IMG/VR virus record: IMGVR_UViG_3300015076_000011
Span: 1 to 23,648 of that record
DNA length: 23,648 bases
Origin: a virus
Strand: one strand, 5' to 3'
This document shows positions 1 to 23,648 of the stretch, one piece after another. Under the pieces are notes generated by a model. That model searched no databases. It was not told where the DNA came from and saw only the letters and a list, made by a program, of their open reading frames with translations. Position 1 is the stretch's first letter. Each line of letters begins with the position of its first letter. The position numbers and the translations under genes were made by a program.

Positions 1-709
1 GCGGGTTAATGCCGATTACCGATCCGGCAGAGTCGTCATACAAAAGAATTTGGTTTCGTCCGAATACCACTAAGTTGGCGCCGTTGGCCGCGATGCCTTG
101 TACTGAGTCAGTGCCTCTAGTCCAAACGCTCGCGACGTTAAGCGAGCCTGCACCTGTAGAACCCCACGCCGTGTAATCGAGGAGGTCGCAGTACTTAATG
201 GTTTGGTTATCGCTGTCTAAGATCCACAGGCGGCCAAAAGCAGCCACCCCACAACCACCAGTAGGCAGCGTGCCGGAACTGGTAGTAATCGTAGCAAACG
301 TCCCTGAACCCGTATAACGTATCGGGCCTTGTCCGGCCTGGACACCGATACACACGTTGTTAAACGTAAGGAACTGCCAATTAGCGGACGCGGGGACTAC
401 TGCTCCGGTAATGTCTGTGAGGGTTGCGGTGCCTGAGTACAGCTTGGTACTTGCTGCGGAGATGATTTGCACTACTCCGGCAGCAGTACGGAACTCGTAT
501 AGTGATTGAACGGCAGGCGCGCCGCCGATTGCGGAGCCTGTGAGCGCTGTCCACCCGTTCCGTGCAGCCAACCGGCCAGAAGCGTCAAATATTGCATTCT
601 GTAGTTCCGTCGCGAACTGCGGGTTAATCTCCGTGCTAGCCGCTTGAGCTTTGTTCAAGCCCATAAAGCCGGGAGTTATTAACGGGACTGGCTGTAACTG
701 ATCCGCCAT
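1..709 (-). CDS. Tail nozzle / tail-tube B-like virion protein, 3' end cut off
   Basis: Partial gene: the first 236 codons from an ATG at 709 are visible and the rest lies beyond the left edge. The start falls 4 bases after the stop of the adaptor gene, so the two are probably co-transcribed. The protein is rich in Gly, Thr, Ser and aromatic residues. It has spaced repeats of the type FGRLWILDS and VVFGRNQILLY, the blade-like pattern seen in podovirus nozzle proteins (T7 gp12 or P22 gp10 type). Position right after the tail-tube A-like gene supports this. The expected role is to extend the tail below the adaptor ring and retain packaged DNA. The exact subfamily cannot be decided from the fragment. 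Confidence 0.6.
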   Translation of the reverse strand, partial: MADQLQPVPLITPGFMGLNKAQAASTEINPQFATELQNAIFDASGRLAARNGWTALTGSAIGGAPAVQSLYEFRTAAGVVQIISAASTKLYSGTATLTDITGAVVPASANWQFLTFNNVCIGVQAGQGPIRYTGSGTFATITTSSGTLPTGGCGVAAFGRLWILDSDNQTIKYCDLLDYTAWGSTGAGSLNVASVWTRGTDSVQGIAANGANLVVFGRNQILLYDDSAGSVIGINP

Positions 710-2677: not shown

Positions 2678-3472
2678 CTATTTGACTCGTCCTTCGGCAT
2701 ACGCTTTATTCATCTCTTCTTGGAATTTTGGATCATTCCATCTAGCTTGCGCGGCTTGGTCGTAGTCAATCTTCATTCGTAGTTCCATCAACTTGGCGCG
2801 GCTCCAAACCTTTTCAGTTGCCTGTGTAGCAGGAGTAGAACGTACAGAACTTGCAACTTTTTTCTGCACTTTCTTCTCTCCCTTTGGTTCTGCTAACTCT
2901 TTATGCTCAGTCCACATATCCCAAAGGGATGCTGCGGCACGAAAGTCATTGTTAGCTGCCAAGTTACCTAGCCCTGCGCGGACTTCATTCTTTTTAACCC
3001 ACTCAGTAAAAGCAGGGTCTTGCATGTCGTCAGCGTAAGTTGGGTAACGAGACACAAAGTCGCGCTGTGTGATGGATCGCTCAAGATTCTCTGCTCGCTG
3101 TTCAGCGGCTTTAGCACGTTGGACGGCTTCACTAGAATCTACTGCGCTCCGAATAGCCTTTTCGGGATCGTTAAGCAGAGATTCAACCGTTACCGGCTGG
3201 CGCTCTACTTTTTGGTGTTGTGTCGTTTCTTGCTTTCCGGACTTCAAATTCAGTATTTCATCAGCCATGCGGCGAAGTGTTCCCACTTCCCGGCCTTGCT
3301 CAGTAATCTTTCTTTCACTGTGCTGATGCATCTGAATCAAATCTTCAATGCTCTTACCGGCATATTTAGCCGGAACATTGGAGGCGGTCTCCGTAGAGGT
3401 GCCCGAAGGTTCTACGAACAAGTCCAAATCGTCAGACGTGGCGCTACCAGCGCCGCTCATTTCAACAGACAT
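2678..3472 (-). CDS. Capsid assembly scaffolding protein
   Basis: 264 residues, highly charged, without Cys, and helical in character. A Gly/Ser/Asp-rich N-terminus is followed by YAGKSIEDLIQMHQHSERKI, a pattern frequent in podovirus scaffolds. Then comes a long Glu/Gln/Lys/Arg-rich middle likely to be coiled coil, and a basic C-terminus (NKAYAEGRVK) of the sort that contacts coat protein. A good RBS (AAAGGA, 9 bases from the ATG) supports the start. It sits directly upstream of the major capsid gene, the usual place. No protease gene is visible next to it. Confidence 0.7.
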   Translation of the reverse strand: MSVEMSGAGSATSDDLDLFVEPSGTSTETASNVPAKYAGKSIEDLIQMHQHSERKITEQGREVGTLRRMADEILNLKSGKQETTQHQKVERQPVTVESLLNDPEKAIRSAVDSSEAVQRAKAAEQRAENLERSITQRDFVSRYPTYADDMQDPAFTEWVKKNEVRAGLGNLAANNDFRAAASLWDMWTEHKELAEPKGEKKVQKKVASSVRSTPATQATEKVWSRAKLMELRMKIDYDQAAQARWNDPKFQEEMNKAYAEGRVK

Positions 3473-4030: not shown

Positions 4031-6093
4031 TCTTGCGGGGCGCTAGCTACGGGCTGCATTGCTTTTTTGTGCGCGATATAGTTTTTAACTACTTCGTGCA
4101 TATGCCCTCGCTCTCTGTGATAGTGATCTATGTGCGCTTTAGCTGCCTCGACTTCTATTTGCCGAGCTTGATTGTCAGCCGTCTTGTGCGACGCTTGGAC
4201 TTGGGCCGCTTGAATCTGTGCAGTGATAGGAACCACTTGCGCCTTAGCTTGCGTCTCTTGTGCCTTGGCTTGGTTGACGCCAACGCGCGAACTGACTTCG
4301 TCGGCTTCTGCTTTGGTTTTAGCTACGCCTGCCTCAAGTCCGGCCATTTGCAGTTCTTGTTGCTTTTGAGCAGCAGCTTGCGCGGCCGGATCAGGCTTCA
4401 TGGACTTGTCAATAGCCGCAATGATTTGATCTTTCTGCGGGCCGCTGTAGTTGTCTATGATTCCCTTCAATATGATGGGGAAGGCTGGTGATTGCTGCGG
4501 AACAACGGCCAGCAAGTTGGTCATCTGCATCTGCTCAAATTCACGAGCGACGATCGACATAGTACTGTTGACAGTGAAATACGGTATTCGCGGGTATCTT
4601 TGCGGGTTCATTTTCGAATACCGCAAAATAGACTTGCGAACTAGTTGATCTAAAAAAACGTCAACAGATTGCATGGTTAGCTTGGAGCGCTTTATAAAGC
4701 TGCTAGAAGCCATGGATTGACCGGAGGCGGTGCTGTTCGCGTTAATCGGGCTAGCGGGGTCTGAGGCGCCCGTAGCCATCTGCGCGTAGCGTTCCAAGTC
4801 CGCCGACTGTTGGAAACTAGCGCCGTTCATTGTGCCGAACTGGATAGCCTGAATAATTTCATTTGGCGGTCCGTTCGTTCTGTAAATCTTGCCGGGCGTC
4901 ACGTACGGATCAAACTTAGACGGCATCCGAGTAGAGTCTATGCCGACAGTCGGGTACGTAATTAACGCTAATGCGTCCATACGTGCCCGGACTTCTCCGT
5001 CTAACGCTACTTGGGAGTTAAACGCTTTTTCTACTACGCCAATACCGAAGAAACTATCGGGCGATTCGTGATGCTGGTAGGCAATAAACCCACGATCTTT
5101 AAGATCATTCTCTTGCGCGGAAAGCAGCCCTGTACCGTTGCCGATACACACGATTGCCTCTACATAATCAAACTCGTCATCTTCGTCCGAATCATCGTCC
5201 GAATCTTCCATCAAATCTTGGTTATCGTCTTTTGGCGTTTTGCCTTTCAGAAGATACTTAGGGACTTTGCCGTGATACTCAGTAAAGTAAATCCCGTCTT
5301 CAGCGTCTACCGTCTCAAGGTCCGTAGACATGGATTTGTTGAGAATGTCAGTAGCTCCATATCCGGCTACAGAACTTAAACTTTCATCGTCCCAATACTC
5401 ACCAGAAGCTTGCTTTTCTTTAACAATGTGAATTGGCAGCACGGTTTCGTGTGCGCAGCCAAGAGCTTCATCTATCGTCATAGCGGCCGTGTCCATGACA
5501 AAGCTGTTAGGGGCTACAGGCTCCCAGCACAAGTACCGCGTACCGTCTAACTGAGTCGTTTCTACGGCTTTAGCGATGCCCGTTCCGTAGATACCTCCGT
5601 TATAGAACACACGCTTTAGGTCGCGTTTAATTCCGCCCGTATGAAGGTCAGCAAGCAAATTGTCTCTAACTTCTTCTTCAAGCTGCGAGTAATCAACCGG
5701 AGGTGGCTGAGGTGCGGCCGGGGGTTGTCTTTGCTGGGGTGCCGCTTGGGGAGGTGCTTGCGGGTTTGGTGGCGGATCGGACAGGACTACCCAATCCCCT
5801 CGGCCAAAAACAGCGTCCATCATCTCCGCCACAGTTTGGTCAACTGCCGACTGCGAAACTGGTGTTATGATCTTAGACCGCTCTGCCTGCTTTCCTTTGA
5901 GGCTAGGGTCCCAACGTCCACGCCATATACGGTAATAGCGAATCCAATCAGACGAATAAGTGCTATCACGCTGCGTTCGCCAGCGGTTTACTTTAGACAT
6001 GATCCACGTAACTAGTTCCGGGCCTGGCTTGAAGCCTTCCCCTTCGTTACTTGAATCTGTTTTTAGTGCTTGTAAGTCTATGGTATCTGACAT
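4027..6093 (-). CDS. Portal protein
   Basis: 688 residues, a normal length for large podovirus portals. It starts with an acidic tail, then WIMSKVNRWRTQRDSTYSSD. A Pro/Gln-rich insertion lies near residues 108-132, an acidic stretch (DDDSDEDDE) near residue 300, and a long Ala/Gln/Lys helical C-terminus from about 570, as in barrel-forming portals. It lies directly downstream of large terminase and upstream of scaffold and capsid. The dodecameric portal would sit at one capsid vertex and be the docking site for terminase. The RBS is weak, so translation may depend on the terminase gene 20 bases upstream. Confidence 0.87.
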   Translation of the reverse strand: MSDTIDLQALKTDSSNEGEGFKPGPELVTWIMSKVNRWRTQRDSTYSSDWIRYYRIWRGRWDPSLKGKQAERSKIITPVSQSAVDQTVAEMMDAVFGRGDWVVLSDPPPNPQAPPQAAPQQRQPPAAPQPPPVDYSQLEEEVRDNLLADLHTGGIKRDLKRVFYNGGIYGTGIAKAVETTQLDGTRYLCWEPVAPNSFVMDTAAMTIDEALGCAHETVLPIHIVKEKQASGEYWDDESLSSVAGYGATDILNKSMSTDLETVDAEDGIYFTEYHGKVPKYLLKGKTPKDDNQDLMEDSDDDSDEDDEFDYVEAIVCIGNGTGLLSAQENDLKDRGFIAYQHHESPDSFFGIGVVEKAFNSQVALDGEVRARMDALALITYPTVGIDSTRMPSKFDPYVTPGKIYRTNGPPNEIIQAIQFGTMNGASFQQSADLERYAQMATGASDPASPINANSTASGQSMASSSFIKRSKLTMQSVDVFLDQLVRKSILRYSKMNPQRYPRIPYFTVNSTMSIVAREFEQMQMTNLLAVVPQQSPAFPIILKGIIDNYSGPQKDQIIAAIDKSMKPDPAAQAAAQKQQELQMAGLEAGVAKTKAEADEVSSRVGVNQAKAQETQAKAQVVPITAQIQAAQVQASHKTADNQARQIEVEAAKAHIDHYHRERGHMHEVVKNYIAHKKAMQPVASAPQE

Positions 6094-6113: not shown

Positions 6114-7427
6114 TCAGATACCCGAGATAAGATCCATCGGTTCGAACGTAGCTATCTCGCCAATGTCGTTATAATTTTGGTCGTCTAGCTGATCGATATA
6201 GGCCAGAGAATCGAGCATGTCGTCATGGGAAAGCGGGGACGGAAAGTCGTTTGCTTGCTCAATCAGCCTGCGCTGCCACGAATTGTAATCGTCTGCGTTT
6301 TCGGTGTTTAGTACTAGCCGTCCTTTCTCTAGGCGCCCTTGCAGTGCCCACCTAATGCGGTCTGCTTTGTTCTTTCCGCCGTGAGATAAATCCCACACTA
6401 GAAAGTAACGATTCATCCGTTTCATTTCGTCCGTTAGATACGGACCTACTGCGTTTTTTAAAGCGCCTTTTTCGATTCCAAGCTTGATCGGACGATACTG
6501 AGCGTAGGCACGGATGATCTGAAGCGCCGTCTCTCTAACGTCCCACTGGCCGGTAATGATTCGTTCGACGAACCATCCGCCTGGGGAACAATTCGCAACC
6601 GTGATTGCGTGCTCGTCTCTGACTTTGAGGTGCCCTTTTTTGAATCCGCCCGCGTCAGTGAATCCAGCAAGGTCAACTGAGATATAGCAGGAACCGTCAC
6701 CAGGATTAGTTCCGAATTTCCACCACTCTTCCCGAAGATGCTCACCGCCTCCGCCATTGAAAGATGCGCCGTACTCTTGCCGTGCAGCAGCAGCAGACAT
6801 GTTAGCGATAGCGCCTGCAACTTCTGACGCATCCAACGTTGGGTTAGCAAGAGACTCATAGTTGAACGCGGACCAATCTTTGTATGCAGCTTTGTCAGAA
6901 AGCGCATTTTGGTACAAGTCGTAAAAGTGATTTTTACCATCCGGCGTACCTATGAACAGTGCTCCGCCTTTAACGTCAGACAGCGCAGGCCGAATAATCT
7001 TTTCCCAGACATCCGGTTTCATCATGGCGTATTCGTCAAGGACGCAGTACGACAAGCCTACGCCGCGAAGAGAGTCAGGACGATCCGAGCCTTTGATAGA
7101 TATTCGGCGCCCGTTCACTAGTGTGACTGTTGCCGTGTTCTCGTGGGCAGAGGCGATTAACCCGCCTTCTTTCTCGGTTTTGGCGAGAGACTTTAGAAGG
7201 TTCCACATGATCTCCTTTCCTTGGGTGAAGGTCGGAGCCACATAGTAGATTTCTTTGTCAAGAAGGCTGCGCCCAAGCGGCGTTTCTTCTTTGAGCGCTT
7301 CTAATATCAAGGTTATCGCAGCGAGGTACGTTTTCCCGAACCTTCGGCCGCAAACGGCTACTTTGAACCTAGCCGGATCGTTAAAAACTTCTTCTTGTGC
7401 GGCGTGCAGATTAAACTGCAACGCCAT
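6114..7427 (-). CDS. terL: Terminase large subunit
   Basis: 437 residues with both enzymatic parts. ATPase: Walker A GRRFGKT (27-33), Walker B CVLDE (128-132, catalytic E132) and the coupling motif GTP (160-162). RNase H-like nuclease: acidic residues D252 (SVDLAG), E319 (GIEKGA) and D402/D403/D406 (HDDMLD). It cuts concatemeric DNA and pumps it into the procapsid through the portal. The start is 3 bases after the stop of the preceding small gene. The 2000-base gene order terminase-portal is standard. Packaging type (cos, pac or terminal repeats) cannot be inferred here. Confidence 0.93.
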   Translation of the reverse strand: MALQFNLHAAQEEVFNDPARFKVAVCGRRFGKTYLAAITLILEALKEETPLGRSLLDKEIYYVAPTFTQGKEIMWNLLKSLAKTEKEGGLIASAHENTATVTLVNGRRISIKGSDRPDSLRGVGLSYCVLDEYAMMKPDVWEKIIRPALSDVKGGALFIGTPDGKNHFYDLYQNALSDKAAYKDWSAFNYESLANPTLDASEVAGAIANMSAAAARQEYGASFNGGGGEHLREEWWKFGTNPGDGSCYISVDLAGFTDAGGFKKGHLKVRDEHAITVANCSPGGWFVERIITGQWDVRETALQIIRAYAQYRPIKLGIEKGALKNAVGPYLTDEMKRMNRYFLVWDLSHGGKNKADRIRWALQGRLEKGRLVLNTENADDYNSWQRRLIEQANDFPSPLSHDDMLDSLAYIDQLDDQNYNDIGEIATFEPMDLISGI

Positions 7428-10482: not shown

Positions 10483-10497
10483 AGTTTGCCCGTAGGT

Positions 10498-10647
10498 CTA
10501 TGTTGATGAGTCCGTTACCCCGCCACCTAGATTACGTCCGGTAGCCGCGACCGGATACGCCGGACGCTTGGGGATATTGGGTGCCTCGATCCGTCCTTTC
10601 GGCAGCGGCACTCCTGGGCGCGGCAATGTGATCCGCCTTTTAACCAA
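10498..10647 (-). CDS. Possible 49-residue basic, proline-rich peptide (TTG start)
   Basis: A frame opening at TTG 10647 and ending at TAG 10498 encodes a Pro-, Arg- and Gly-rich peptide (LVKRRITLPRPGVPLPKGRI at the start). It has no ATG. The region upstream (10648-10773) is noncoding and foldable. It fills the gap between two genes and shares the Pro-rich style of the neighbour downstream, which is why I list it. The lack of an ATG and of a clear RBS keeps this weak. Confidence 0.3.
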   Translation of the reverse strand: MVKRRITLPRPGVPLPKGRIEAPNIPKRPAYPVAATGRNLGGGVTDSST

Positions 10648-10697
10648 CTTTCATGACACCCGGATATACCTAGTCCCGTCTAGTTGGAAACACAAAA

Positions 10698-10785
10698 CCC
10701 AAGCCCTATACGACAAGCCCGAGCTTCTGTTGCTCTCGTGTGGTAGTAACTTGGGGTCCCAGTTATCGGGCTATTAGCCCTTTTT
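10698..10785 (+). ncRNA. Possible pseudoknotted RNA ending in a terminator hairpin
   Basis: On the plus strand four segments alternate as a pseudoknot: CCCAAG (10698-10703) with CTTGGG (10750-10755), and AGCCCGA (10716-10722) with TCGGGCT (10766-10772). An extra hairpin GAGC-TTCTGTT-GCTC lies at 10721-10735. The end, GGGCT-ATT-AGCCC followed by T5 (10768-10785), looks like an intrinsic terminator on the plus strand, antisense to the end of the 56-residue gene. No convincing plus-strand promoter was found upstream. The same pairings could also act in the minus-strand message. Confidence 0.35.
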
Positions 10786-10944
10786 GCTTTCTTCTGGGGA
10801 AACAAGAGAATCGACTGGAGTAAACATGTCCGCTAGTTCGTCTGGCTGGCGGTACGGCAACTTGAAGCGCAAGGCACGGGAAAAGTCTAAGCGGCTGTGT
10901 TCGCCGAACTTAAAGCCCTCTTCGGTTCTGTCTATTACTTCCAT
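10774..10944 (-). CDS. Small 56-residue protein of unknown function, first behind the promoter
   Basis: ATG at 10944, stop TAA at 10774, 56 residues: it starts MEVIDRTEEGFKFGEHSRLD and ends SPEESKKG. Charged, no Cys, no membrane segment. It lies about 18 nt downstream of the predicted start site of the strong minus-strand promoter at 10969-10998, so it is the first gene of the long virion transcript. AAGAG close to the ATG is a weak RBS. Clean start-promoter spacing and codon-like composition make it likely real. Confidence 0.68.
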   Translation of the reverse strand: MEVIDRTEEGFKFGEHSRLDFSRALRFKLPYRQPDELADMFTPVDSLVSPEESKKG

Positions 10945-10968
10945 AACTCTTTACTACCAACAGGGAGA

Positions 10969-10998
10969 ATTGTACCACATTATGTATACTCAAGTCAA
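10969..10998 (-). promoter_or_regulatory. Sigma70-type promoter for the virion operon
   Basis: On the minus strand TTGACT (10993-10998), an 18-bp spacer and TACAAT (10969-10974): five of six and five of six consensus positions. The transcript would start near 10962 and run into the 56-residue gene and the virion genes. Its -10 context GTGGTACAATTC is shared with the promoter at 11717-11746 (GTGGTACACTTC) and with a -10-like site at 11841-11850 (GTGGTACAAA). Confidence 0.72.
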
Positions 10999-11005
10999 GT
11001 AATTA

Positions 11006-11281
11006 TTAAAGTTTGTTTACTTGACGCATTTCTGCAATGGCTTGTGCCGCAACTTTGACAGGCATTCCCCTGTGCTTTCGTTCGTGCAAGAACCTGTGAA
11101 CACGGCCAAGCTCTCGTCGCTTGCGGTCAAACTCGGCTTTGGCAGACGCAGCTTTAGCCGGATTCTCTGCCCTCCATTTACGCAAAGCTATCCTGTTGCA
11201 TTCAACACAGGCTTTAGACGCAAAGTAACGGGTATTGCCGTGTCCGTGAATACACGGCTTTCCTTCATACACTTTAGACAT
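11006..11281 (-). CDS. Small zinc-finger-like protein
   Basis: 91 residues with an N-terminal metal-site pattern C10-x-H12-x-H14 and C25-x2-C28 (KPCIHGHGNTRYFASKACVE). This arrangement is frequent in short phage and HNH/endonuclease VII-like proteins. The rest is basic and helical (RKWRAENPAKAASAKAEF), without visible HNH catalytic residues. It may bind nucleic acid. The RBS is good (AAAGGA, 5 bases from the ATG). Its 3' end lies 8 bases before the -35 of the virion promoter, so it is a separate unit fed by promoters upstream, with the structured RNA region as a possible long leader. Confidence 0.65.
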   Translation of the reverse strand: MSKVYEGKPCIHGHGNTRYFASKACVECNRIALRKWRAENPAKAASAKAEFDRKRRELGRVHRFLHERKHRGMPVKVAAQAIAEMRQVNKL

Positions 11282-11323
11282 AGCTATCCTTTAATCTTAT
11301 TTAAAAACAATCTAATAGCTGTT

Positions 11324-11345
11324 TTCAAGTTGCTTAGGACTTGAA
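11324..11345. promoter_or_regulatory. Operator-like inverted repeat upstream of the zinc-finger gene
   Basis: TTCAAGT (11324-11330) and ACTTGAA (11339-11345) form a perfect 7-bp inverted repeat with an 8-bp spacer, 43 bases upstream of the gene start at 11281. It overlaps a weak minus-strand promoter (TTGAAA, 17 bp, TTTAAA). Symmetry and position suit a repressor site; in RNA it could instead be a 3'-end hairpin of the structured RNA. Confidence 0.4.
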
Positions 11346-11710
11346 TATACTTGCACTCTTCTGACCGACCCCTAAAGGGAGGGAAGTTATTACGGACATG
11401 TCTTAACCTCTCTTACGAGATAGTTGCGTTTTTAAGGATGCTTTCCACCGAAGTGTTTTCCCAGTCATCCGGCCGCTTGTGCGGCTCGCACTGACCTAGC
11501 CTTGGGACCTCTTGCTAGGTTATTTCTCTCACGGTTAGGCCCTCGAGCAGTGTTATCCGACAAAGGGCTTGCTGAACCGACAAAACTTTTATCAAGTCCG
11601 GGGAAGTGGCAACTACTCTCGTCCGCCCACCGCACCCGCTATTGCGGAACCCTTCTTTTATCCCGCTGGGCTAGCTGGCGGGGTACACAATATTCTATAT
11701 TCACACTAGA
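11346..11710 (-). ncRNA. Candidate large structured noncoding RNA (or very long leader)
   Basis: About 365 nt downstream of a near-consensus promoter hold seven hairpins and no convincing gene. On the minus strand: CCCGC/GCGGG (11662-11682), CCGC-AATA-GCGG (11636-11647), GCCCT/AGGGC (11539-11568), ACCTAGC/GCTAGGT with a 13-nt loop (11494-11520), a nested stem CAGT/ACTG around GCCGC-ACAA-GCGGC (11462-11493), CAC-UUCG-GUG (11446-11455), and TCTC-GUAA-GAGA (11409-11420). The UUCG and GNRA loops are canonical only on the minus strand, matching the promoter direction. GGATG/CATCC may close two of the hairpins into one domain. No known class (RNase P, tmRNA, group I/II intron) is recognised. It could extend into the leader of the gene at 11281. 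Confidence 0.5.
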
Positions 11711-11716
11711 CCGAGA

Positions 11717-11746
11717 AGTGTACCACGCTTAGGGTGTCTGTGTCAA
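11717..11746 (-). promoter_or_regulatory. Strong sigma70-type promoter for the structured RNA
   Basis: On the minus strand a perfect TTGACA (11741-11746), 18 bp, then TACACT (11717-11722). Transcription would start near 11710. It is the best -35 match on this strand, yet the next credible start codon is over 400 bases away at 11281, which is the reason to expect a functional RNA in between. Confidence 0.72.
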
Positions 11747-11840
11747 GTTATTGTAGTGTACAATCTGTATTACATAGGATACTTATTTTCACCTGTAAAG
11801 TTTGTTAGCTAAGCACGTTGAAATTCTTAGTATTGTTGTA

Positions 11841-11956
11841 TTTGTACCACACCTGATACTGCCCTTCCTGCCCTGTAAAATTCAGGGGATGCCTAATTCG
11901 TACCCCCCGTTAGCGGATGCGTGTACCGCCGCCGCTGCGGGATCTCCTAGGGGGGT
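11841..11956. other. Third GTGGTACA motif and two GC-rich stems, no gene
   Basis: The minus-strand motif GTGGTACAAA (11841-11850) repeats the -10 context of the two promoters nearby but has no good -35. Next to it are CCCTG-TAAAATT-CAGGG (11871-11887) and a strong nested stem: ACCCCCC (11902-11908) with GGGGGGT (11950-11956), enclosing AGCGG/CCGCT (11912-11936). The outer stem is too short-spaced for a tRNA. From 11957 to 12119 the sequence is AT-rich with small palindromes only (for example TATGC-N7-GCATA near 12025). Confidence 0.4.
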
Positions 11957-12119
11957 CCGGTGGTTCAATCGCAATTCAAATTGTTAAATCGTATTATGTA
12001 AACCGAATCGATTACCATAATAACTATGCACACTTTGCATAATAAACATTCACACTAATCTAAACTGATACACTCGAACTACATCATGTACTTGCGTGCA
12101 CTGTGTGTAAATACTGGGC

Positions 12120-12152
12120 GCACAGCCAGCGATAGCCCTGGCTGTGCTTTGT
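12120..12152 (+). terminator. Strong hairpin terminator, plus strand
   Basis: GCACAGCCAG (12120-12129) pairs perfectly over 10 bp with CTGGCTGTGC (12138-12147), with an 8-nt loop, followed by TTTGT. It reads as an intrinsic terminator on the plus strand only. No gene precedes it on that strand, so it may end an unseen small RNA or block plus-strand transcription coming from the virion side. Confidence 0.6.
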
Positions 12153-12273
12153 CATAGCTGGACATAGAGCACTCTTCTTATGTCTCGTGTGGGCGCAGCG
12201 TGAATAGAGGTTTGCGGTTCACCATTCGTTGTCTCTCACTACCCCACACACTGCACTGCTACTGATCTAGTAC

Positions 12274-12334
12274 AGATACGTCCGTATCTATAGACAGATA
12301 CTCGGACCTCAACTAACAGAGCTAGTCTAGGTCC
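12274..12334. repeat. Clustered short palindromes, possible operator or origin
   Basis: AGATACG-TC-CGTATCT (12274-12289) is followed by another GATAC (12297-12301), giving alternating GATAC/GTATC half-sites. GGACCT (12304-12309) and AGGTCC (12329-12334) form a further inverted repeat. The stretch from 12153 to 12379 has no gene and lies directly downstream of the HTH regulator gene. Protein binding sites are plausible; nothing proves an origin. Confidence 0.3.
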
Positions 12335-12379
12335 TCGTATCACAGCCTGTTATCCTTATAAAGCAGAGCTAGACAACCT

Positions 12380-12727
12380 CTATATCTCTTTTAGCTTTAT
12401 CATTTTAGATAGCAGCATTTCCCGCAGCTCTCTGACTTGGAGCCGCAACGATGCGTTCTCTTCTTTAAGCTCAATTAAATCAGAACTAGGCCCTGTACCG
12501 ATCCTAGCTCGCTTCTCTGCGTTCTTCTTGTAATTCTTTGCCCACAAGTAGAATCCTGCTCGACTGACCTTGTAGTACTTGCACAGCACGTTCACATTCT
12601 CACCGGCTAGATACCGCTTAACAGCTTCTTCTATTTGGTCAGGCGGATGCACGATCCTCCCTTTTGTCGTACGGGCATGCGCCTCGACGGCAGTATGCTC
12701 AACGGGGGGTTTGCTCTGCTTAACCAT
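12380..12727 (-). CDS. HTH plus coiled-coil regulator (transposase OrfA-like fold)
   Basis: 115 residues. A basic N-terminus is followed by a helix-turn-helix at about 31-66 (QIEEAVKRYLAGENVNVLCK, then YYKVSRAGFYLW) of the type found in IS3-family OrfA and in some phage regulators. A C-terminal coiled coil follows at 83-115 (LIELKEENASLRLQVRELRE), probably for dimerisation. There is no catalytic domain and no IS ends. The RBS is good (GGAG, 9 bases from the ATG). It is transcribed away from the early plus-strand genes, the usual layout for a lysogeny repressor, so that is my leading guess. A small terminase-like role is less likely given the distance from terL. Confidence 0.7.
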   Translation of the reverse strand: MVKQSKPPVEHTAVEAHARTTKGRIVHPPDQIEEAVKRYLAGENVNVLCKYYKVSRAGFYLWAKNYKKNAEKRARIGTGPSSDLIELKEENASLRLQVRELREMLLSKMIKLKEI

Positions 12728-23075: not shown

Positions 23076-23648
23076 ATGGAATTTAAACTAACAAAAGAAC
23101 TGGCGTCTAAAGTCCTTGAGACTATTGATGCTGGCTTGGTGACGGGGATGGGTAAACCCACCCCAGGGCAAATGTGCGTGGAGGCGGCAGTTTGCTACGC
23201 AATGGGTCTACCACACTCGGATCAACCCACGTGCGTATCGCCTGCTTTGCGGTCGCTTAAAATCGCGTTGAATGATAGCAGTTGGTCTACAAACGAAGCT
23301 CGCACGAAAGGTCTGCGGCGGCTTGGCGTTGCCCAGCTTGGGAGCAAAGACGCGCTTGACGATGCAGCTTTTAGTAAAGCGGTTTCTACGCTGGTTATTC
23401 AGAAATACGTACCTGTGGCCCTACTGGCGGCTGCATCAGTTCAAAAAAAGGCGGCCCACAAAGAAAAACTAGAAAAAGCAGCGTTGCTTTGTTCTACAGA
23501 CCCATCGGAGGTTGCCGCAATTTCGGCGCGCGCCGCCGCCCCCTACGCCACCGGCGCCGCCGCCTACGCCTCCTACGCCGCCGCCAGCGCCGCCAGCGCC
23601 GCCTCCTACGCCGTCAACGCCGCCTACGCCACCGCCGCCGCCTACGCC
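23076..23648 (+). CDS. Phage protein with alanine-rich repeat tail, cut at the right edge
   Basis: 191 codons visible. The N-terminal domain (residues 7-115: CVEAAVCYAMGLPHSDQPTC, then RSLKIALNDSSWSTNEAR) belongs to a family frequent in phages, function unknown to me. From about residue 151 (23526) the sequence turns into Ala repeats with Tyr every few residues (AAAYASYAAASAASAASYAV), encoded by GCC GCC TAC-type codons, and runs off the window. Such tails may form long amphipathic helices or fibres. The abrupt rise to nearly pure G+C codons suggests repeat expansion. Confidence 0.82.
   Translation, partial: MEFKLTKELASKVLETIDAGLVTGMGKPTPGQMCVEAAVCYAMGLPHSDQPTCVSPALRSLKIALNDSSWSTNEARTKGLRRLGVAQLGSKDALDDAAFSKAVSTLVIQKYVPVALLAAASVQKKAAHKEKLEKAALLCSTDPSEVAAISARAAAPYATGAAAYASYAAASAASAASYAVNAAYATAAAYA

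Follow-up and report, generated by a model that had tools for sequence, protein, structure and literature searches.

The gene-free stretch at 11346-11710 of the window (our term for the whole DNA analysed here, a 23,648-base IMG/VR virus record) is best explained, with a probability of about 0.7, as part of the 5' leader of the late operon, downstream of a bacterial-type promoter. The original prediction had described it as a distinct structured RNA of about 365 nt; that reading is not supported for this genome, bearing in mind the folding energy, the hairpin statistics, the Rfam searches, the comparison with relatives and the lack of a terminator. The more general idea of a structured RNA in the control region is not supported in the window and is borne out in three relatives (L002, L003 and L152), each of which carries two RNAs that we name RNA1 and RNA2. 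These two are a better lead than the window stretch: they are short, clean and easy to test.

The promoter and the probable late-operon leader

The control region (11282-12379) separates two gene arms. The minus strand encodes the late genes, including the terminase large subunit, portal and adaptor-like genes, and a 318-aa gene presumed from position and conservation to be that of the capsid; the plus strand carries integrase, DnaB-like helicase, DNA polymerase and C5 cytosine methylase genes. A terminator-like hairpin of 12 pairs (1566-1539, minus strand) lies directly after the presumed capsid gene and before the tail genes, and the lowest local folding z-scores of the minus strand (-4.6) are found there. 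The control region itself has no convincing ORF: hexamer coding scores are negative for seven of its eight ORFs of at least 30 aa, and the remaining one, located outside 11346-11710, scores +0.075 (on this scale the genuine-looking ORF 11281-11006 reaches only 0.012). Within 11346-11710 the longest minus-strand ORF is 56 aa with a negative score; a coding gene is rejected there from the hexamer scores, and the description of the stretch as gene-free stands.

In the promoter statistics, a strong site was defined by at least 10 of 12 matches to TTGACA-like and TATAAT-like boxes together with a TG before the -10 box. The whole window, both strands included, contains two such sites against 0.08 expected (60 shuffles): P1, which is the TTGACA-18-TACACT promoter already recognised in the original prediction, and P2 (Table 1). 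Both are on the late (minus) strand, and the chance of at least one strong site on the minus strand of the control region is 0.0065 (2000 shuffles). With a looser criterion (9/12), the 13-kb late half yields 8 sites against 10.8 expected; since these show no excess over shuffles, it is the strength of P1 and P2 that counts. By these statistics P1 is a real promoter of bacterial type, and its transcripts would start near 11710. A small HTH_Tnp_1 (transposase-type helix-turn-helix) protein, encoded at 12380-12727 (minus strand), adjoins the control region and is kept in L003; it is a candidate regulator of P1 and P2.

Besides the promoter upstream, the stretch has two further properties of a late-operon 5' leader: no terminator-like site occurs on the minus strand from the stretch down to 10000, and the downstream ORF at 11281 has an AGGA ribosome site five bases 5' of its ATG. 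The simplest transcript would therefore extend from about 11710 across 11281 and on into the late genes, and 11346-11710 would represent the first 365 nt of its leader. The 91-aa product of that first ORF is similar to PHROG families that have no assigned function (phrog_1081, E 7.3e-9).

Table 1. Positions of promoters, leader, hairpins, C-rich elements and RNAs in the window and in relatives
Feature	Position	Strand	Evidence or remark
Promoter P1, TTGACA-18-TACACT, extended -10 (TGG before TACACT)	11717..11746	-	promoter statistics
Promoter P2, TTGACT-18-TACAAT, extended -10	10969..10998	-	promoter statistics
Probable untranslated late-operon 5' leader, ~430 nt, putative boundaries	11282..11710	-	no terminator, ORF at 11281, non-coding scores
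First late-operon ORF, 91 aa, Cys/His-rich	11006..11281	-	PHROG matches
Hairpin ACCTAGC...GCTAGGT, 7 pairs, loop 13	11494..11520	-	stem search
Hairpin GCCGC-ACAA-GCGGC	11472..11485	-	stem search
GGATG...CATCC enclosing CAC-TTCG-GTG	11436..11470	-	letters
Arms of GGATG/CATCC	11470-11466/11440-11436	-	
Tetraloop hairpin CAC-TTCG-GTG	11455-11446	-	
Hairpin TCTC-GTAA-GAGA	11420-11409	-	
Possible long-range closing helix ACGAGA-GU-AGUUGC / GCAACU-A-UCUCGU, 12 pairs	11415..11622	-	P = 0.715
Inverted repeat ACCCCCC...GGGGGGT, upstream of P1	11902..11956		inside L003-alignable 12228-11834
C-rich element	window 11902-11956; L003 3150-3220; L005 2643-2661; L012 ~4997-5012; L014 ~6497-6512; L002 ~312-370		
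RNA1, two/three-hairpin leader RNA	L002:511-625 (+); L152:8916-9031 (-); L003:3491-3583 (+)		
RNA2, ~125 nt, after P2	L002:1014-1142 (+); L152:8466-8593 (-); L003:4052-4172 (+)		

Folding and hairpins of the stretch

The stems named in the original prediction (ACCTAGC/GCTAGGT, GCCGC-ACAA-GCGGC and GGATG/CATCC) are present in the letters, the last two as neighbours one base apart; as a set, the leader hairpins are not above chance. Watson-Crick stems of at least 5 pairs with a loop of 3-20 number 8 against 4.5 expected (P = 0.085), and their count is identical on both strands of the stretch; the earlier figure of at least seven hairpins is thus reached, without going beyond chance. The UUCG and GUAA tetraloops do occur on the minus strand only, as had been claimed, and the number of UUCG/GNRA loops closed by 3 pairs is 2 against 0.25 expected, with a P value of 0.029 that is uncorrected. 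The longest long-range helix of the leader is within chance (Table 1) and competes with the TCTC-GTAA-GAGA hairpin. Folding of the minus strand gave z = -0.66 relative to shuffled sequence (-0.59 for the plus strand), that is, no more stability than the shuffles; segments of 120 nt within the region range from -1.17 to +0.85, and the mean of the whole window is -0.34. A functional RNA can exist without excess stability, but nothing in the window shows one. A second gene-free stretch on the minus strand (290 nt, 10483-10773), between the 56-aa ORF of P2 and the 154-aa ORF, also has no excess structure (z 0.15).

These data bear on the idea of a free-standing, trans-acting non-coding RNA of ~365 nt in the style of GOLLD or ROOL, which we consider improbable. 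In its favour, the stretch has its own promoter and tetraloops in that promoter's direction, and there is the precedent of the relatives' RNA2, which looks free-standing: it follows P2, one or two genes on, and has a U7-U8 end. However, the 3' end of the stretch has no terminator, an ORF with a ribosome site begins 65 nt downstream, and both excess structure and an Rfam match are absent. Nothing in the window reaches an Rfam gathering score; when hits with E up to 10 were admitted in 10900-12400, SraB and a CRISPR repeat model were the sole ones, on the plus strand and far below cut-off. The covariance models (and ARAGORN for tmRNA) give no match in the window to RNase P, tmRNA, introns or other Rfam families, in agreement with the original prediction, which saw no RNase P, tmRNA or intron motif. 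The proposed likeness to GOLLD and ROOL was based on size only and does not survive. Like those RNAs, the stretch is phage-encoded, non-coding and of unknown function, but GOLLD members are described as often exceeding 800 nt, and GOLLD and ROOL as often, though not obligatorily, near tRNA islands (PMC12286853), whereas the window has no tRNA (ARAGORN) and no Rfam match.

Relatives and their RNAs

Terminase scans returned 56, 18 and 39 loci and a capsid scan 12; informative, comparable late control regions are those of L002, L003, L152 and L005 only. By terminase identity to the window, L002 (77%) and L003 (74%) are the nearest of the 56 loci; L152 (68%) was found through the RNA pattern, and L005 stands at 64%. 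L003 and the window have the same order of an HTH_Tnp_1-type gene (44%), a 154-aa gene and the integrase, and control-region DNA of L003 aligns with window 12228-11834 (E 5.1e-6), the alignment stopping before P1. In L012 and L014 the leader is short, and the two copies are 73% alike. No relatives were found via the adjacent 91-aa and 115-aa proteins, nor prophage relatives in scans of bacterial genomes. Against phages and plasmids, blastn with the control region or the leader produced no relevant hit (two 27-nt Listeria phage matches, E 0.9). When 118 gene-free stretches of 72 sequences were compared with one another by blastn, the leader stayed unmatched, the sole window match being 17 nt with L014, outside the leader (E 0.008).

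Several members also have, upstream of the late promoter, a C-rich element (CCCCCACCCCC or the inverted repeat ACCCCCC...GGGGGGT), which is possibly an origin or a cos-like DNA site. That 11346-11710 itself is a DNA element, namely part of a replication origin or a packaging site, rather than RNA, seems very unlikely to us. The conserved inverted repeat 200 nt upstream would fit such a function, as would the DnaA-box-like TGTGGATAA repeats that flank the C-rich element in L012 and L014, just upstream of it; but the L003 homology ends before P1, and DnaA-box-like sites (one mismatch) number 5 in the window against 3.6 expected, with none in the control region.

RNA1 lies within the leader that heads the late operon and has the architecture CAAGGC-hairpin-GCCGCA-hairpin. 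Its position corresponds to that of the window leader, between P1 and the first small late gene (the L152 contig starts inside RNA1, and its P1 is not visible). The RNA1 leaders fold with z of -6.5 (L002), -5.9 (L152) and -3.65 (L003). In the second stem, four of the seven pairs are changed on both sides between L002 and L003 and all seven are kept; the letters of this stem in L152 are the same as in L002. In the nine sources scanned, out of about 240, RNA1 is the sole site of the exact motif pair (CAAGGC, 10-50 nt, GCCGCAGC). At L002:481-511 and 546-605 there are two-pair helices between repeated GA/GA internal loops, which are suggestive of tandem sheared G-A pairs.

RNA2 is placed after one or two small genes and the second promoter, and starts 9 nt (L002), 12 nt (L152) or 31 nt (L003) past the -10 box. 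Its ends pair (GACGRG/CYCGTC) and are followed by seven or eight T; it has the look of either a small free-standing RNA or an elaborate terminator. Folding is less evident for it than for RNA1 (z -2.9 in L002, -2.25 in L003 and -1.0 in L152). A first RNA2 pattern proved too loose and was rejected: it matched at least 120 stretches, and among the matches listed the closing stem was present only in L002, L003 (=L083) and L152; a stricter two-gap pattern recovers L002, L003 and L152 and no others. Neither RNA has an Rfam 15 match in L002 and L003 (the two relatives scanned), and a sequence search in phages found no match to either; a SAM/SAH riboswitch match at L002 4770-4817, below cut-off and inside the terminase gene, was rejected. 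Some covariation is seen in RNA1 and RNA2; it comes from no more than three genomes, and one metagenome (3300044691) supplied two of these.

Covariance models of both RNAs were built from L002 and L152, with L003 held out. The RNA1 model recovers the L003 copy with E 3.5e-4 when 2 kb are searched unfiltered, and misses it in a filtered search of 14 sources; the RNA2 model recovers its L003 copy with E 2.8e-3 (203 kb). In the equivalent 2 kb of the window, the best E values are 0.38 for RNA1 and 0.21 for RNA2, each on the wrong strand, and there is no match; nor does a U run follow 11415. The window shares with the RNA1/RNA2 phages a control region, a late-operon position and a promoter type, but unlike L002, L003 and L152 it is without RNA1 or RNA2 as judged by models that recover the held-out L003. 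Its leader is unrelated to these RNAs, has been replaced, or has diverged beyond these tools.

Of the last of these, an RNA1 homologue that has escaped both sequence and covariance tools, we are doubtful. It would occupy the same position; CAAGGC is found at 11504 with GCCGCA 13 nt on, and the fourth-best placement of the model, on the right strand, is 11504-11435 (3.0 bits). Yet this placement (E 0.93) scores below wrong-strand ones and was counted as nothing, the motif with up to two mismatches has 22 placements in the window, the spacer is unable to form the first hairpin, and GCCGCA belongs to the GCCGC-ACAA-GCGGC stem.

A possible role in late transcription

It is quite possible, if somewhat less than an even chance, that the leader is plain untranslated spacer: hairpins there by chance, no RNA function, and no effect other than to put a long distance between promoter and first gene. 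The folding z-score, the hairpin and long-range helix counts and the failure to find a recognisable relative of the window RNA all agree with this. Pointing the other way, relatives keep folded RNAs in the equivalent place, a 430-nt stretch is long for a phage whose genome is compact, and the two canonical tetraloops are confined to the transcribed strand.

We give even odds to a late-operon leader that acts in cis on polymerase, perhaps by antitermination; that antitermination in particular would be its job, a proposal made from position and by analogy, we hold to be less probable than not. Host RNA polymerase would start at P1 and transcribe the head, packaging and tail genes, from 11281 to the window edge; the leader, to judge from its position, would act in cis on the polymerase that transcribes it. 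The likeliest form is a processive antitermination or anti-pausing element, through which a single host-type promoter region would serve late genes spanning more than 11 kb. In the window as in its relatives, a promoter is followed by a non-coding leader, then by small genes, a second promoter and the late genes. In L002, L003 and L152 the U7-U8 run of RNA2, after a closed stem, lies downstream of P2 and ahead of the next late gene, a place where a P1 transcript would need readthrough. Several findings count against this reading. The window leader is no more stable than shuffles and the RNA1/RNA2 models do not find it, which means that position alone carries the functional analogy. No terminator-rich stretch is shown in the window, where the best minus-strand terminator-like site (1566-1539) comes only after the presumed capsid gene. 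Against the same P1 layout in L003, the TTGACA at 3421 has no -10 box at 15-19 nt.

Two known antiterminator RNAs are instructive here. The put RNA of HK022 (putL, putR) is likewise a non-coding RNA near a phage promoter heading a long operon; it is described as antiterminating, ~70 nt long, with two stem-loops (PMC9378689), and RNA1 of the relatives is similar in its two stem-loops, which lie side by side and are joined by a short linker. The window leader differs from put, which is far shorter, has known polymerase contacts (PMC9378689) and serves early operons; with no recognisable two-stem element above chance in the leader, the likeness would be positional. The antiterminator leader RNA canT of Tn916, for which a length of 452 nt and a number of predicted stem-loops are described (PMC11658703), is close in length to the predicted window leader; unlike the window phage, Tn916 is a Gram-positive conjugative element.

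A broader hypothesis, which we regard as unlikely, is that the group swaps cis-acting leader RNAs at a constant promoter position, all of them licensing host polymerase, for example by antitermination. The swapped set would consist of RNA1 and RNA2 (three members), the folded leaders of L005 and the unrelated ~365-430-nt RNA of the window. If such leaders do act on host RNA polymerase, they would constitute an RNA-only route to phage late-gene control, in phages whose scanned proteins include no recognised RNA polymerase or antiterminator protein. If they do not, the window provides a caution, in that a gene-free stretch with a strong promoter and several neat stems is what chance produces in a long leader of average composition.

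The ORF at 23076-23648 (plus strand), which exits the window edge, has a long, repetitive alanine/tyrosine-rich tail. L005 has two TATAAT promoters with folded non-coding sequence behind each: the late operon is headed by TTGACA-16-TATAAT and a folded leader (z -3.7), and the second promoter, TTGACG-16-TATAAT, precedes ~330 nt of gene-free, moderately folded sequence (L005:1862-2222, z -2.6) that is a candidate for a further phage RNA.
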